51,170 nucleotides of DNA from Prevotella sp. (GTDB lineage Bacteria; Bacteroidota; Bacteroidia; Bacteroidales; Bacteroidaceae): assembly GCA_017475005.1 (NCBI GenBank), contig JAFVGI010000035.1, forward strand, positions 1 through 51,170, written 5' to 3'. The notes under the pieces were generated by a model. The model did not search any database. It was not told the DNA's origin and saw only the letters and a list, made by a program, of their open reading frames with translations. Each line of letters starts with the position of its first letter. Position 1 is the stretch's first letter. A program made the translations under genes and the position numbers. Below, one piece after another: positions 42,762 to 47,990 of this stretch.

Positions 42762-43940
42762 TTATTTCTTCTGTTGCTGTTGTTTGTTGTTTCGTGGACG
42801 AGGCATGAATGGGTTGTTGTTGCTATTGTTGTCTGCTGCAACCTCTTCACCACTCATCTTGAACTCAGTAATAATCTTCTGACCTGGTTTCAGACCTCCT
42901 ACTATCTCTGTCATAATACCATTGCTGATGCCTATCTGTACAGGATATGCCCGGAAAGTATTACCGTCAAGAACCCAAACCTTATGCTCTCCCTTACAAT
43001 CCTTGATGGTCTGATCTTCTGTAAGCATCTTCTCATTAGGAGTAAACTTCAGGGCTTTCGTAGGAACTGTTACAATATTGTTCTTTTCCTTTGTATAGAT
43101 AGTAACATTTGCTGTAAGACCTGGCTTGAGTTTGAGGTCTGCATTAGGAGCAGAGATAACTACTTCGTAGGTTACGACATTTGACTCTGTCGTAGCCTCA
43201 AGGCGCACCTGTGTAACAGTACCGTTAAAGGTGTCGTCTGGGAAGGCATCTACAGTGAACGCCACACGCTCTCCTTCATGCACCTCACCTATGTCTGCCT
43301 CATCAATATTTGCTATAACTCGCATATTGGTAAGGTCTTGTGCAATCTTGAAGAGTTCCGGAGTATTGAATGATGCAGCAACTGTCTGTCCCTCTTCTAC
43401 GGATTTGGATATCACAATACCATCAATTGGTGCAGTAATAGTAGCATATCCGAGGTTTGTCTCAGCCTTCTTTACATTTTGTGTAGAAGTGAGGACCTGC
43501 TGCTCTGCCTGCTGATAAGACAAGCGTGCCTTCTCAAAGTCATCAGCACTGATAAGACCTTTGTCAAACAGTTGATGCTGACGATTGAAGTTTGCTCTTT
43601 GGTAGGCCAGATTGCTCTGCTGAGATGAGAGATTAGCTCGTGCAGAAGCAAGCTCTGACATAAGATTTGTCTTGTCGAGTTCTGCTATTACCTGTCCTTT
43701 CTTTACTATGCTGTTGTAGTCAACATAAAGGTGGGAAACGATACCACTAACCTGTGTACCGACAGTAACGCTTGTAACTGCTTCGATAGTACCTGTGGCT
43801 GTAACACTAGTGCGAACATCGCCTACCTCAACAGGAACTGTAACATAAGAAACTTCTGCTTCTTTTTCACCACCTAGTGCAAAAAATAATGCAATGGCAA
43901 CTATCGCTACCACTACCAAACCTATAATCTTCTTATTCAT
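42762..43940 (-). CDS. MacA-like periplasmic membrane-fusion protein
   Basis: A 392-residue adaptor with one N-terminal membrane segment (residues 5-23), then the two lipoyl half-motifs (SVTVGTQVSGIVSHLYVD and ATITAPIDGIVISK), a helical hairpin between them (about 90-160) and beta-barrel domains. It ends in an Asn/Gln/Lys-rich tail. It links the inner-membrane ABC pump to the outer-membrane channel. Its ATG overlaps the stop of the TolC-type gene by 4 bp (ATGA). Confidence 0.94.
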   Translation of the reverse strand: MNKKIIGLVVVAIVAIALFFALGGEKEAEVSYVTVPVEVGDVRTSVTATGTIEAVTSVTVGTQVSGIVSHLYVDYNSIVKKGQVIAELDKTNLMSELASARANLSSQQSNLAYQRANFNRQHQLFDKGLISADDFEKARLSYQQAEQQVLTSTQNVKKAETNLGYATITAPIDGIVISKSVEEGQTVAASFNTPELFKIAQDLTNMRVIANIDEADIGEVHEGERVAFTVDAFPDDTFNGTVTQVRLEATTESNVVTYEVVISAPNADLKLKPGLTANVTIYTKEKNNIVTVPTKALKFTPNEKMLTEDQTIKDCKGEHKVWVLDGNTFRAYPVQIGISNGIMTEIVGGLKPGQKIITEFKMSGEEVAADNNSNNNPFMPRPRNNKQQQQKK

Positions 43941-45256
43941 CTTTTGTAAAATTCTAACATCTTAATGCAAAATATCGTTGTGAATTTTGCTTCTAATTCT
44001 GCTTGCTGAGCAGAAAGCAGACGCATCTTGCCTTCTTGCAACTCAACAATATTCTTCAGTCCTACCTGAAACTGTTCTGACAGCAGGTCATAAGACTCTT
44101 GTGCACTTTCGGTACTAGCCTTTGCAGACTTGTATTGCTGCTGGTTGTTGTATGCCTGAATCCAGAAGTCGCTGATAGTGCTGTAAAGTGTTGTCTCCTT
44201 ATCGCGAATATCAAGCAAGGCCTGCTGTTTCTGAATAGCTGCCTTATTGATAGCTGTCCTTGCTTCTCTTCTGTCCAGAATCGGAACATTGATGCTAAAG
44301 CCGCCGCCAAGATTGAAACCATTCTTAATCTGTGTGCCCCAAGCATTGTTGCTTTGAGAAGAATTGTTGGTTGTGGCAGAAGCATTTAGGGTAACTGTCG
44401 GGAGGCGCTGTGCTGAAGCGATTCTGCGTTGGACGTCAGCAGATTCAATAGACAGGCGAGCACGTTTTATCTCAGGACGATTCTCAAGTGCTGCCTCATA
44501 AACGCTTTGTATAGAGGGTATTGGCTGTAGCGCCATCGCATCAGTAGTTTTCGTGGCTGTTACATCAAACTCCTCTTCGTCGGTAATCTGCATCAAGGCC
44601 TTCAGCTGACGCTTGAAGTTACGCACATTACTCTCGCTCTGCACCAGACCATACTCATCCTGGGCACGCTGAGAGGTAAGTTGGGAAAGGGCTGCCTTAC
44701 TCAGGCTTCCTACCCTATACATCTCCATACCACGATTCTCTGTCACCCTGGATGCCTCGAGTGTACTCTCACAAACCTTCACAGCTTCCTTTGAGTACAG
44801 AATCCTGACAAAAAGCGTAGCCAACTGTTCCTCAAGATTACGAGCCTTTACAATACTATCCTCAGCAGCTGCCTGCTCAGCAATATCATTGAGCTTTACC
44901 TGATTGTGGTTTCTGTTTCCATTCCATACTGTCCAGTTGCCACCAAGGGTGTAAGCACCATTATAACTGGTCTTCTTGGTTACTGTCTGCACCTCATTGT
45001 TCTGAACAGTCATACCTTGCTTCCAAGGCTGATAGGCTACATTCTGGTTTGTGGAAAAACTAAGGGAAGGAAACAGGGCTGCCTGAGAAGACTTCAGGGT
45101 TTCCACAGCCGTCTGGCGGGTGAGGCCCAATTTTTGCAGGGAAATATTGTTTGTCAGGCAGTAGTCAAGACATTCCTCAAATGTCCACACTCTTGCCTGA
45201 ATATTTTGGGAAAACAAAATGATTGTTCCCAGTATCGCAACAAGATATTTCGTCAT
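43937..45256 (-). CDS. TolC-family outer-membrane efflux channel
   Basis: A 439-residue protein with a signal peptide (cut near QARVWT, about residue 22) and two repeats of the OEP (outer-membrane efflux) domain: long helices with the motif LEECLDYCLTNN-like WTFEECLDYCL at 24-34 and a second half from about 245 (YEAALENRPEIKRARL). It is the first gene of the minus-strand operon TolC-MacA-ATPase-permease-DUF5686. A TAACTTTG -7 box lies 28 bases upstream. Confidence 0.93.
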   Translation of the reverse strand: MTKYLVAILGTIILFSQNIQARVWTFEECLDYCLTNNISLQKLGLTRQTAVETLKSSQAALFPSLSFSTNQNVAYQPWKQGMTVQNNEVQTVTKKTSYNGAYTLGGNWTVWNGNRNHNQVKLNDIAEQAAAEDSIVKARNLEEQLATLFVRILYSKEAVKVCESTLEASRVTENRGMEMYRVGSLSKAALSQLTSQRAQDEYGLVQSESNVRNFKRQLKALMQITDEEEFDVTATKTTDAMALQPIPSIQSVYEAALENRPEIKRARLSIESADVQRRIASAQRLPTVTLNASATTNNSSQSNNAWGTQIKNGFNLGGGFSINVPILDRREARTAINKAAIQKQQALLDIRDKETTLYSTISDFWIQAYNNQQQYKSAKASTESAQESYDLLSEQFQVGLKNIVELQEGKMRLLSAQQAELEAKFTTIFCIKMLEFYKR

Positions 45257-45292: not shown

Positions 45293-45392
45293 CATTATTT
45301 TTTTCAAATATAAAACTTTTTGACACACAAAACGTTTTATTTTACATATTTTTCACTACAAATTTTTCTCCAAACCGCGTTTGAAAATTATT

Positions 45393-45510
45393 TCCTCCGA
45401 GGAGAATTTTATGTTTCAGCCCCTGAAACACCTGTACAAGGTCTGTAAACATGTGTCCAAGGCCCTTGGACACATGTTCAAGGCCCTTGAATATAAATTC
45501 TCTCGAGGGG
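45393..45510. repeat. Array of consecutive palindromes in a divergent spacer
   Basis: In order: TGTTTCAG-CCC-CTGAAACA (45413-45431); ACCT-GTACA-AGGT-like (45431-45443, imperfect); arms of 15 bases around one base (45449-45479, core CATGTGTCCAAGG and its complement); TTCAAGG-C-CCTTGAA (45478-45492). They are enclosed by imperfect outer arms near 45400-45413 and 45492-45505. The spacer 45257-45574 holds no gene, only this array and two divergent promoters. Confidence 0.9.
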
Positions 45511-45532
45511 AAAAATATTTTTCTTCATAGTT

Positions 45533-45566
45533 TTGACATATTTTTAAAATATAATTTGTATCTTTG
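45533..45566 (+). promoter_or_regulatory. Promoter of the cyclo-ligase gene
   Basis: TTTG (45533-45536), a 22-base spacer and TATCTTTG (45559-45566). The ATG is only 8 bases further on. Confidence 0.75.
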
Positions 45567-45574
45567 CACAAGCT

Positions 45575-46027
45575 ATGAATAAAGAAGAACTTCGCAAATA
45601 CATTTTTGAACAGACAAAGGGGCACTCCACACAAGAACTGGAGGATGCTTCACGCACAATATGCGAAAAGTTGATGGAGCACGAGAAAATCAAGAAGGCA
45701 GAGACAATTGTGCTCTTCTGGTCAATGAAAAATGAAGTCAAAACTCATGACCTCATCCCAAGACTTGTGCGCGATAAAAATGTCATCATCATAACACAAT
45801 CTGCTGACACAAAACCTGTTGTTCCTCCTTCGGATGCTGTCATCATTGTGCCAGGAATTGCCTTCGATAACAGAGGGTACCGACTGGGCAGAGGAAAGGG
45901 GTATTATGACCGATATTTATCAAAATTAGAAGAAAACTATAAAATTGGTATCTGTTTTCCTTGGCAAATGATAGAAAAAGTGCCAACAGATAGCCATGAT
46001 GTGTGCGTTAACGAGGTTATTTGCTGA
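45575..46027 (+). CDS. 5-formyltetrahydrofolate cyclo-ligase, shortened
   Basis: A 150-residue enzyme of folate one-carbon metabolism that turns 5-formyl-THF into 5,10-methenyl-THF using ATP. The C-terminal signature PGIAFDNRGYRLGRGKGYYDR is intact (quoted in parts: PGIAFD, RLGRGKGYYDR), as are WSMKNEVKTHDLI and CFPWQMIEKVPTD. Homologues I recall are about 175-190 residues. Here the segment between KNVIIITQ and DAVIIVPG is only about 12 residues instead of 40 or so, removing strands that help bind folate. The frame is intact, so this is an internal deletion and not a frameshift. Activity is uncertain. Confidence 0.85.
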   Translation: MNKEELRKYIFEQTKGHSTQELEDASRTICEKLMEHEKIKKAETIVLFWSMKNEVKTHDLIPRLVRDKNVIIITQSADTKPVVPPSDAVIIVPGIAFDNRGYRLGRGKGYYDRYLSKLEENYKIGICFPWQMIEKVPTDSHDVCVNEVIC

Positions 46028-46088: not shown

Positions 46089-47990
46089 ATGGAACCCATC
46101 AAAATAACAGAGGAAGAGATACAGGACCGCGCCAACAAGGTTTTCTCCGCAATGGAGAAGCGATGTTCTGTAAAAGAGATGCAACTGGTGCAAAAGGCTT
46201 TCAATTTTGCACGAGAGGCACATCGTAATCAAACGCGCAAGTCTGGAGAACCCTACATTATCCACCCTATTGCTGTAGCGATGATTATCGCTAATGAAAT
46301 GCAATTGGGAGCAGCACCTGTTTGTGCAGCTTTCCTGCATGATGTAGTAGAAGACACACCATGTACTGAGGAGAAAATCAGGCAGGAATTCGGAGATGAT
46401 GTGGCCTTTCTTGTCAGTGTGGTTACAAAGAAAAAGAAGAACCAGTACGAGATGTCAAAACAGCTTGACAACTTCAAGCAGATGTTGGATTCCATGCACT
46501 ATGACATCAGAGCAATCCTCATAAAACTTGCTGACCGCCTGCATAATATGCGAACTCTGTCATCAATGGGGCCTGCAAAACAGATGAAAATCGCAGGTGA
46601 GACAGATTTCTTCTATGCTCCGCTGGCGAACAGATTGGGGCTTTATACTATTAAAATAGAACTCGAGAATCTCTCCTTCCATTATCGTTGTCCACAAGTT
46701 TACGACAGAATCCTGAAACTCATAGAAGAGGACAAGAAGCGTGACGAAAAACGCATGGCTCCATTCTACAAGAAGATGGACGAGATTCTGAAGAATAACG
46801 GAATAGCATACGAACGCGAAGTGTTATACAAACAGCCTTATAACATTTGGCGGAAAATGATACAGCAGAATATCGACTACGAACACCTGGAATGTAGGCA
46901 TTTCACCAAAATCGTTTTCAAGTCTGACATGTATATGACAGACAAGAACAGGGCTCTGAAGATATATTCTCTGTTAACTGACGTATTCAAGGAGAGACCT
47001 AATTCTGTCATAAATTACATCGACCTTCCAAAGCAAAACGGATATCAGGCTTTCCACACACAATTGCTCAGCGATTATGGAATATGGGAAGAGGTACACA
47101 TACAATCGGAGAAGATGGCAACCAAGACAAAGCTGGGATACCTCTTCGACAGCGGTGATCGAGAGATTGATATCAATATGTGGCTGGAGACATTCCGTAA
47201 AGTGCTGAAGGATGTATCAAATAACCTGGAGTACAACGAAGAAAACAAGCACTTCTTCATCGAGAGTGTTCGCACTACTCTGTATAATGATGATATACAG
47301 GTATATACTCCAAAGGGAAAAGCAATGTTGCTGCCAAAGAAATCTACAGCAATAGATTTCGCATTCGCCATCAGCAACGAAGTCGGCATGCATGCGAAAT
47401 ATGCTAAGATAAACGGACATCTGGCTTCAGTAAAAACCATTCTGAAACGTGGGGATAGCGTAGAGATAGGTGTTGACGAGAACATCACGCCACAGGAAGA
47501 CTGGAGAAATAGTGCAAAGACCTATGAAGCTCTAAGAAGTATCAATATTTATCTGGATCATCTTCCCAAGCCCAAATATTGCAGATGCAGTAGCTGTCAC
47601 CCTATACCAGGAGAAGAAGTTATCGGATTTAAAGAAAATGATGGCACCATAACAGTACACCGCAGGGATTGCACACTCGCAATAAGCCTTGTTTCACAAT
47701 TTGGTGACAATATTATAGCTGCTGATGATTTCAAAGAGAATTCTGAAACCCTATATCCAGCTTCGCTGACCTTGAAGGCTGTTGACAGAAAGCATCTCCT
47801 GAGCGACATCATAGAAACTATTTCCAACCAACTACGTCTGTCTATCCTTAGCCTTGATACAACTACCGTTGACGAGATTGTGACAACAACAATCAATTTC
47901 ACCATTCACAGCTATCAGGAACTAAGGACTATCGTGCAGAATATACAAAGCATCCCAGATGTTGACGAAGTTATCTACAATAACAAATAA
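46089..47990 (+). CDS. RelA/SpoT-family protein with intact hydrolase and degenerate synthetase
   Basis: A 633-residue (p)ppGpp enzyme of the long RSH type. The HD hydrolase site is complete: IIHP (His59), HDVVED (84-89) and KLADRLHNMRTL (Asp149, Asn153). The synthetase domain (about 235-350) keeps IWRKM (253-257) and NGYQAFHT (317-324) but departs from the family at the usual RPK-type G-loop (here YKQPYN) and at the conserved Asp and Arg of the DxxAxR-type motif (here LECRHFTK). A TGS domain (about 398-460), a Cys-rich zinc-finger-like segment (CRCSSCHPIPGEE) and a C-terminal ACT-like domain follow. Other RSH proteins of this phylum are, as I recall, about 100 residues longer. It is probably mainly a hydrolase. 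Confidence 0.88.
   Translation: MEPIKITEEEIQDRANKVFSAMEKRCSVKEMQLVQKAFNFAREAHRNQTRKSGEPYIIHPIAVAMIIANEMQLGAAPVCAAFLHDVVEDTPCTEEKIRQEFGDDVAFLVSVVTKKKKNQYEMSKQLDNFKQMLDSMHYDIRAILIKLADRLHNMRTLSSMGPAKQMKIAGETDFFYAPLANRLGLYTIKIELENLSFHYRCPQVYDRILKLIEEDKKRDEKRMAPFYKKMDEILKNNGIAYEREVLYKQPYNIWRKMIQQNIDYEHLECRHFTKIVFKSDMYMTDKNRALKIYSLLTDVFKERPNSVINYIDLPKQNGYQAFHTQLLSDYGIWEEVHIQSEKMATKTKLGYLFDSGDREIDINMWLETFRKVLKDVSNNLEYNEENKHFFIESVRTTLYNDDIQVYTPKGKAMLLPKKSTAIDFAFAISNEVGMHAKYAKINGHLASVKTILKRGDSVEIGVDENITPQEDWRNSAKTYEALRSINIYLDHLPKPKYCRCSSCHPIPGEEVIGFKENDGTITVHRRDCTLAISLVSQFGDNIIAADDFKENSETLYPASLTLKAVDRKHLLSDIIETISNQLRLSILSLDTTTVDEIVTTTINFTIHSYQELRTIVQNIQSIPDVDEVIYNNK

Follow-up and report, generated by a model that had tools for sequence, protein, structure and literature searches.

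The DNA analysed here, called the window in the following, is a stretch of 51,170 bases. The element under study is located in the gap between the divergently oriented genes for a TolC-like outer membrane efflux protein and a 5-formyltetrahydrofolate (5-FTHF) cyclo-ligase (Table 1). It is an array in which a 17-bp quasi-palindrome followed by a 4-nt linker occurs four times, giving a period of exactly 21 bp. Its combined dyad-plus-period score of 60 makes it the top place in the whole window, and none of 2000 mononucleotide shuffles of the window intergenic region reached this value (maximum 46). The three inverted repeats named in the original prediction are all present, the longest palindrome indeed pairs perfectly over 15 bases on each side of a single central base (45463), and the imperfect outer arms said to enclose the set correspond to two CCTNAGG-like dyads. 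The 21-bp organising rule and the weak unit 2 had been overlooked. In several genomes the outer dyads follow at steps of about 21-22 bp (flank consensus, by eye). They do not obey the core code of the respective genome and are retained in the sister species G114, which is without the core at this place.

Two sequences in the gap match the consensus of the Bacteroidota-type promoter motif. The array is upstream of the candidate promoter of the ligase gene and does not overlap it; since about 35 bp separate the end of the array from this promoter, an effect on the ligase gene is possible.

Table 1. Features of the window, with positions counted from its first base.
Feature	Position	Strand	Basis or remark
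Outer membrane efflux protein (TolC-like), left neighbour	43937..45256	-	Pfam OEP 4.7e-45
Candidate promoter TTTG...TATATTTG, outer membrane efflux gene	45305..45331	-	consensus match only
Left outer dyad CCTCCGAGGAG	45394..45404	.	CCTNAGG-like
Core array, four 21-bp steps (17-bp dyad + 4-nt linker)	45413..45496	.	dyad-plus-period score
Unit 1, dyad GTTTCAGC-C-CCTGAAAC	45413..45429	.	dyad scan
Unit 2, weak dyad GTACAAGG-T-CTGTAAAC	45434..45450	.	4/8 pairs
Unit 3, dyad GTCCAAGG-C-CCTTGGAC	45455..45471	.	8/8 pairs; 15 pairs including linkers
Unit 4, dyad GTTCAAGG-C-CCTTGAAT	45476..45492	.	dyad scan
Right outer dyad CTCTCGAGGGG	45500..45510	.	CCTNAGG-like, weaker than core dyads
39-aa ORF through the array	45411-45530	+	open frame; both strands open here
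Candidate Bacteroidota-type promoter TTTG...TATCTTTG, 5-FTHF cyclo-ligase gene	45532..45566	+	consensus match only
5-FTHF cyclo-ligase, right neighbour	45575..46027	+	Pfam 5-FTHF_cyc-lig 4.6e-34
RelA/SpoT-type (p)ppGpp enzyme (HD, TGS, ACT domains), directly 3' of the ligase gene	46089-47990	+	
5S rRNA gene near the contig edge	51032-51144	-	Rfam scan

When the 141-bp element was compared by BLAST with its own genome (G000, a 2.36 Mb draft that is 81% complete), ten loci were detected. Copy counts in this and the other draft genomes are lower bounds. All ten loci have four units and no indel inside the 84-bp core, and sequences that depart from the unit consensus at no more than one base are confined to them. 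A DNA search of 39 relatives with the element gave no match at E 1e-6. With a profile derived from the translated frame of the array cores and run on 100 genomes of the genus, we found 12 loci in G114, and five other genomes gave one or two each. All of these loci have four units; the arm sequences differ in the more distant genomes. Exactly four units score above 3 bits in 62 of 69 arrays. Four array places are clearly common to G000 and G114, and a fifth probably is. The region is thus not unique to the strain, and the paired arms are not lost in relatives, although G114 is without the core at the place of the window element. Within one genome, the array pairs L232/L233 and L260/L262 have common flanks, which suggests recent copying. 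A separate repeat of about 50 bp (L017:2869-2922), with a promoter-like TACCTTTG on its minus strand, has about ten further places in G114, some of them adjoining arrays.

The gene beside array copy c29 of our genome, G000 (L016:3183-3848, contig C29), encodes an HU-HIG protein. It matches the family PF18291 with 63.7 bits (2.3e-17; curated cut-off 26.2), while its score of 64.5 against TIGR01201 (HU_rel) is just below the cut-off of 68.6. In G007 and G058, two more distant genomes for which the profile search returned one copy each, this copy is found at the same HU-HIG gene. A search with the HU-HIG protein only (E 1e-15) revealed matches at 41 places in 25 of 120 genomes of the genus. An upstream array of four 21-bp dyad units scoring above all 100 mononucleotide shuffles of the region was present at 29 of 30 such loci (the exception is L123; the array of L137 is weak and the gene start of L140 uncertain), and 6 of seven further loci, compared with 20 shuffles, also had one; together the two sets cover 37 of the 41 places. 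As a control, the same detector was applied upstream of the 5-FTHF ligase gene, where it found no array at any of the 28 scorable loci (of 29). The original prediction knew of no protein family that would explain the palindromes; HU-HIG (PF18291) provides the probable answer.

Different genes have different arm words, such as GTTCAAGG, GTTCCGCA, GTTCACCG, GTACCCAA, ATTGCAAA, GTTTCCGC and AAACCACG. In 13 of 23 HU-HIG arrays, including that of our genome, the array starts exactly 16 nt after a -7 box TAnnTTTG, and in 19 of the 23 such a box is located within 45 nt. Judged from this spacing, the place of the array at the HU-HIG gene looks like that of an operator. Arrays without HU-HIG in the surrounding stretch examined were seen at L066, L067, L068 and L070 (G099, G049 and G057).

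Pfam describes PF18291 as HU fused to wHTH, Ig or Gly-rich parts. The C-terminal 75 residues of HU-HIG resemble a winged helix-turn-helix (alignment, by eye); by sequence, no solved structure matching HU-HIG was found in the PDB. Among 23 HU-HIG genes, array similarity correlates with identity in the C-terminal part (r 0.55) and in the N-terminal part (r 0.50), both values being inflated by shared descent. The partial r (Mantel) is 0.25 for the C-terminus with the HU part held constant (0/2000), and 0.06 for the HU part with the C-terminus held constant (484/2000). This is no more than suggestive of an array word that goes with the winged-helix-like C-terminus rather than with the HU part, as co-evolution is not fully separable from descent.

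Matches to PF18291, ordinary HU included, occur in 143 of 149 genomes, with up to 20 in one. Upstream arrays were flagged at 3 of 6 other PF18291 genes of our genome, with periods of 21, 22 and 23 bp, and, less regular, at 9 of 19 and 4 of 6 further genes of other genera; these counts are based on 20 shuffles and ad hoc gene starts, and some of the flagged arrays consist of poor dyads. The three genes of our genome (L180, L176 and L179, contigs C17 and C19) have arrays of their own: TTGGTGCGCGCCAA at 22 bp, ATCATGTATCATGAAT at 23 bp with about six units, and a 21-bp array before the promoter. Two of these arrays occur only once in the genome, and the third has a near-identical counterpart at one further place and partial ones at two.

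Nine HU-HIG genes, each from a different genome, contributed their arrays to a search of all nine genomes. Every array recovers its own HU-HIG locus. Outside these loci, 41 of 54 places are best matched by the array of their own genome (manual tally), compared with one in nine expected if there were no preference. The 41 places are distributed over seven of the nine genomes (G095 12, G125 7, G098 7 including one 28-nt match, G061 4, G114 4, G058 4, G097 3); in G049 and G064 no dispersed copies of the tested own array were found in this search. The remaining 13 places are closer to the array of another genome (G097 3, G061 1, G058 4, G064 3, G098 1, G095 1). The three in G097 resemble the second HU-HIG array of this genome, one of them being that array, and the one in G061 is a near-tie, while neither applies to the nine in G058, G064, G098 and G095. 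Inspection of 40 places (39 of the 41 and the near-tie) revealed four units throughout, with the exception of L255 (three), L266 (five) and L268 (seven); four of these arrays have a marginal score for an extra unit. When 20 dispersed arrays of G000 and G114 are added, 56 of 60 arrays have their best match in the HU-HIG array of the own genome, a figure that counts G000 and G114 as one group and is inflated because the arrays were largely chosen by similarity to the own array. The array of the window also finds its best match in the own HU-HIG array or the orthologous one of the sister species, and it is 68-80% identical (mean 75%) to the other arrays of its genome.

The gap between tolC and the 5-FTHF ligase gene is occupied in G125 as well, by an array (L246) written in G125's own code. 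It is 56% identical to the array of the window, while its identity to the other G125 arrays is 70% on average (49-92%). Likewise, G125 has an array at the place of copy c2 (the set L249, L011 and L058) and, judged by one neighbour, at that of L056. Besides selection by the protein, gene conversion between copies may contribute to a uniform code within a genome.

The matched change in both arms had been described as compensated and read as selection for pairing, with RNA or a cruciform among the options. Strong RNA folds are predicted for both strands (z -7.3 and -5.9). However, 236 of 320 arm positions match in our genome, and shuffling the right halves between units gives 234 (sd 6.1). The wider test comprised 69 arrays with 276 units, belonging to nine array families in eight genomes. 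Here the mean arm match was 5.89 of 8, compared with 6.11 for right halves taken from the same genome and with an expected 4.27 (sd 0.08) for right halves taken from any genome, where 0 of 1000 shuffles reached the observed value. Only one family, that of G058, exceeds its within-genome shuffles when taken alone (9/1000), and an exception among the pairing tests is unit slot 1 of our genome taken alone (53/2000). Thus, compensation holds between genomes and not within a genome, and selection for pairing is unsupported. Further, G-T (141) and A-C (160) mismatches in the units are about equal, so that neither strand is favoured as RNA, and as one long hairpin the whole element pairs more poorly than shuffled copies do. 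The Rfam scan of the window returned the 5S rRNA only, with no match at the array. With neither an excess over within-genome shuffles nor a bias between the two kinds of mismatch, pairing as an RNA hairpin or a cruciform lacks support, and a structured RNA or cruciform maintained by selection for pairing is extremely unlikely and not needed to explain the element.

Instead, each genome has one repertoire of half-sites, and the units act like pairs drawn from it. The arms match because the half-sites of one genome come from one small repertoire. Such a pattern is the trace that a protein reading DNA half-sites would leave, rather than pairing within a strand, and a matched change of arms between genomes is expected if the half-site of one dimeric protein changes. 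In the G125 arrays L244-L250, many dyads join two different half-words, GTTTCCGC and GTACGCGG, resulting in asymmetric units. The arm match in G125 is 4.28, which is below the 5.22 of the within-genome shuffle.

Since 21 bp equal seven codons, the array can also be read as heptads (MFKALEH-like), and this raises the question of a small protein gene. An open frame runs through the array on one strand or both in all 10 copies of our genome and in 84 of 89 arrays checked. Both strands are closed in 3 of 69 arrays, while about 9.6 would be expected from draws of half-sites and linkers per genome. This deficit could, however, be explained by a polarity shared by descent, and the half-site words hold few stops in themselves. 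Which strand is open varies. At the HU-HIG genes L136, L138 and L140 the array carries 3 to 5 stops on the gene's sense strand, and both HU-HIG genes of G114 (L059 and L182) have arrays closed on both strands. No Pfam match near the cut-off was found for the array frame. Based on these sequence features, translation of the array frames is disfavoured, and we regard a small protein gene as highly unlikely. It should be noted that the open heptad frames are likely to get annotated as small proteins.

Arrays were also found in named species. All four HU-HIG homologs found in PLSDB (two from Parabacteroides distasonis and one each from Phocaeicola massiliensis and Bacteroides finegoldii) are preceded by a 21-bp array that outscores 100 shuffles. 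When a collection of 72,556 records, with few such genomes among them, was searched with the array of the B. finegoldii gene WP_022275387.1, eight further records matched, each from the same strain. As they are large and designated as non-mobilizable, we take these records to be pieces of the chromosome. By eye, six of the eight copies have four units, one has five and one three. No annotated gene lies underneath them (the gene table is incomplete), and they occupy tandem, divergent and convergent gaps, two of the eight being located between convergent annotated genes. For the P. massiliensis array (L273) no match was found in other records of the collection, and the P. distasonis array (L275) matches, at three places, its own record only. 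Plasmid records contained no match to the window element, and phage records no homolog of the HU-HIG of our genome at 1e-4. Among viral contigs there were four pattern matches and no relative, in a search with a single protein as query that reaches close relatives only.

From the association with HU-HIG genes and the code match within genomes, we infer that the element of the window is quite probably an array of binding sites for the HU-HIG whose gene stands at another place in this genome. Each HU-HIG subunit would use its winged-helix-like domain to read one 8-bp half-site. Four dimers could thereby be placed on the four dyads, two helical turns apart and on one face of the DNA, where the HU bodies may bend or wrap the DNA and contact one another; the weaker outer dyads might enlarge the complex. 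At the HU-HIG gene the array would serve as an autoregulatory operator: with an array located 16 nt after the -7 box, its occupancy should switch off the gene's own transcription. The dispersed arrays, by contrast, may act as docking or bridging points that organise the chromosome rather than control adjacent genes. The multi-site operator among the original options would thus be retained as a predicted multi-site binding array, operator-like at the HU-HIG gene, while chromosome organisation is favoured elsewhere.

A role of HU-HIG in regulating the neighbours of its arrays, in the window the efflux operon and the 5-FTHF ligase gene, would be in line with the operator-like placement at its own gene. 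In our genome none of the ten copies is located between convergent genes, and G125 and G000 have two array places in common at which both neighbouring genes are preserved as well (the window gap and L249/L011). On the other hand, all gap orientations are used when 66 loci are considered: by our own ORF calling 29 are tandem, 16 divergent and 14 convergent, and among the remaining seven a long ORF overlaps in four and three lie at a contig edge. The convergent B. finegoldii copies point in the same direction. A promoter box is rarely seen near dispersed arrays, at 10 of 120 sides, somewhat above the 4 of 119 in the control, and few neighbour families are common to different genomes. Given the mixed orientations and the few nearby promoter boxes, an architectural role appears roughly twice as probable as local regulation, and we consider a local regulon unlikely, although it is the most serious of the competing explanations. 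Less probable still, and in our opinion improbable, is a MITE or another selfish element, similar to BrickBuilt, that happens to contain palindromes. The arrays are indeed multi-copy and intergenic, they can be present or absent at one place, as in the window gap where G114 is without the core, and some copies such as L232 and L233 have flanks in common. As for terminal inverted repeats, outer dyads stand at both sides, with no sharp end of the element, and one filled/empty comparison (G000 and G114) showed no clear target-site duplication. But flank similarity drops past about 40 nt. With G125 as outgroup and the outer dyads left in G114, the missing core is most simply explained by a loss. 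One place carries differently coded arrays in different species, so that transposition alone is insufficient; in the window gap, where G125 has an array of another code, the sequence was not inherited with the place.

Taken as predicted HU-HIG binding sites, the arrays may be part of a species-private address code, in which an HU-type protein is paired with about a dozen four-dyad arrays and their word is rewritten in place together with the winged helix while the positions are kept. We propose this tentatively and give it a little less than an even chance. If true, paralogous HU-HIG proteins in one cell would use several codes in parallel. The agreement of dispersed arrays with the code of the own HU-HIG, and its change between species, points to a way of marking the chromosome that is so far undescribed. 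This would be a rare case in which a protein and its sites in the genome seem to have moved to a new specificity in step, with the positions kept. HU-HIG-type genes are common in Bacteroidales, and the arrays offer predicted and directly testable binding sites for individual HU-HIG paralogs, also in named gut commensals.

The HU-HIG family was reportedly described and defined in a paper from 2017, and we know of no role assigned to HU-HIG-type proteins. Among open-licence papers we found none describing binding arrays for the HU-HIG/TIGR01201 family, of which the protein paired with the arrays here is a member according to Pfam (PF18291). Dispersed short palindromic sites that are recognised by one chromosome-organising protein are known from ParB-parS and MatP-matS, where the sites are conserved over wide groups. 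The arrays share with these systems the dispersed palindromic sites and the one predicted reader protein, but their code is private to a species or a paralog and the protein fold differs. REP/BIME elements with RAYT are likewise palindromes that occur between genes in many copies and have a partner gene, which encodes a transposase. Unlike them, the arrays have a fixed format of 4 x 21 bp, and the partner seen is an HU-type protein and not a transposase. Also similar in appearance is BrickBuilt of Porphyromonas gingivalis, which consists of 23-nt tandem repeats, corresponding to about two helical turns, in 19 dispersed intergenic copies with 1 to 22.8 repeats and flanking inverted repeats, and is called MITE-like (PMC4596501). 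One copy, BrickBuilt_14, adjoins the gene of a DNA-binding protein with PF00216 (PMC4596501). Both elements are dispersed intergenic tandem repeats with a period of about two helical turns and flanking inverted repeats, while the unit number of the arrays, in contrast to that of BrickBuilt, is nearly fixed at four. By analogy, BrickBuilt is a lead to a possible array of the same kind, and some repeats filed as MITEs may be recast as architectural binding sites.
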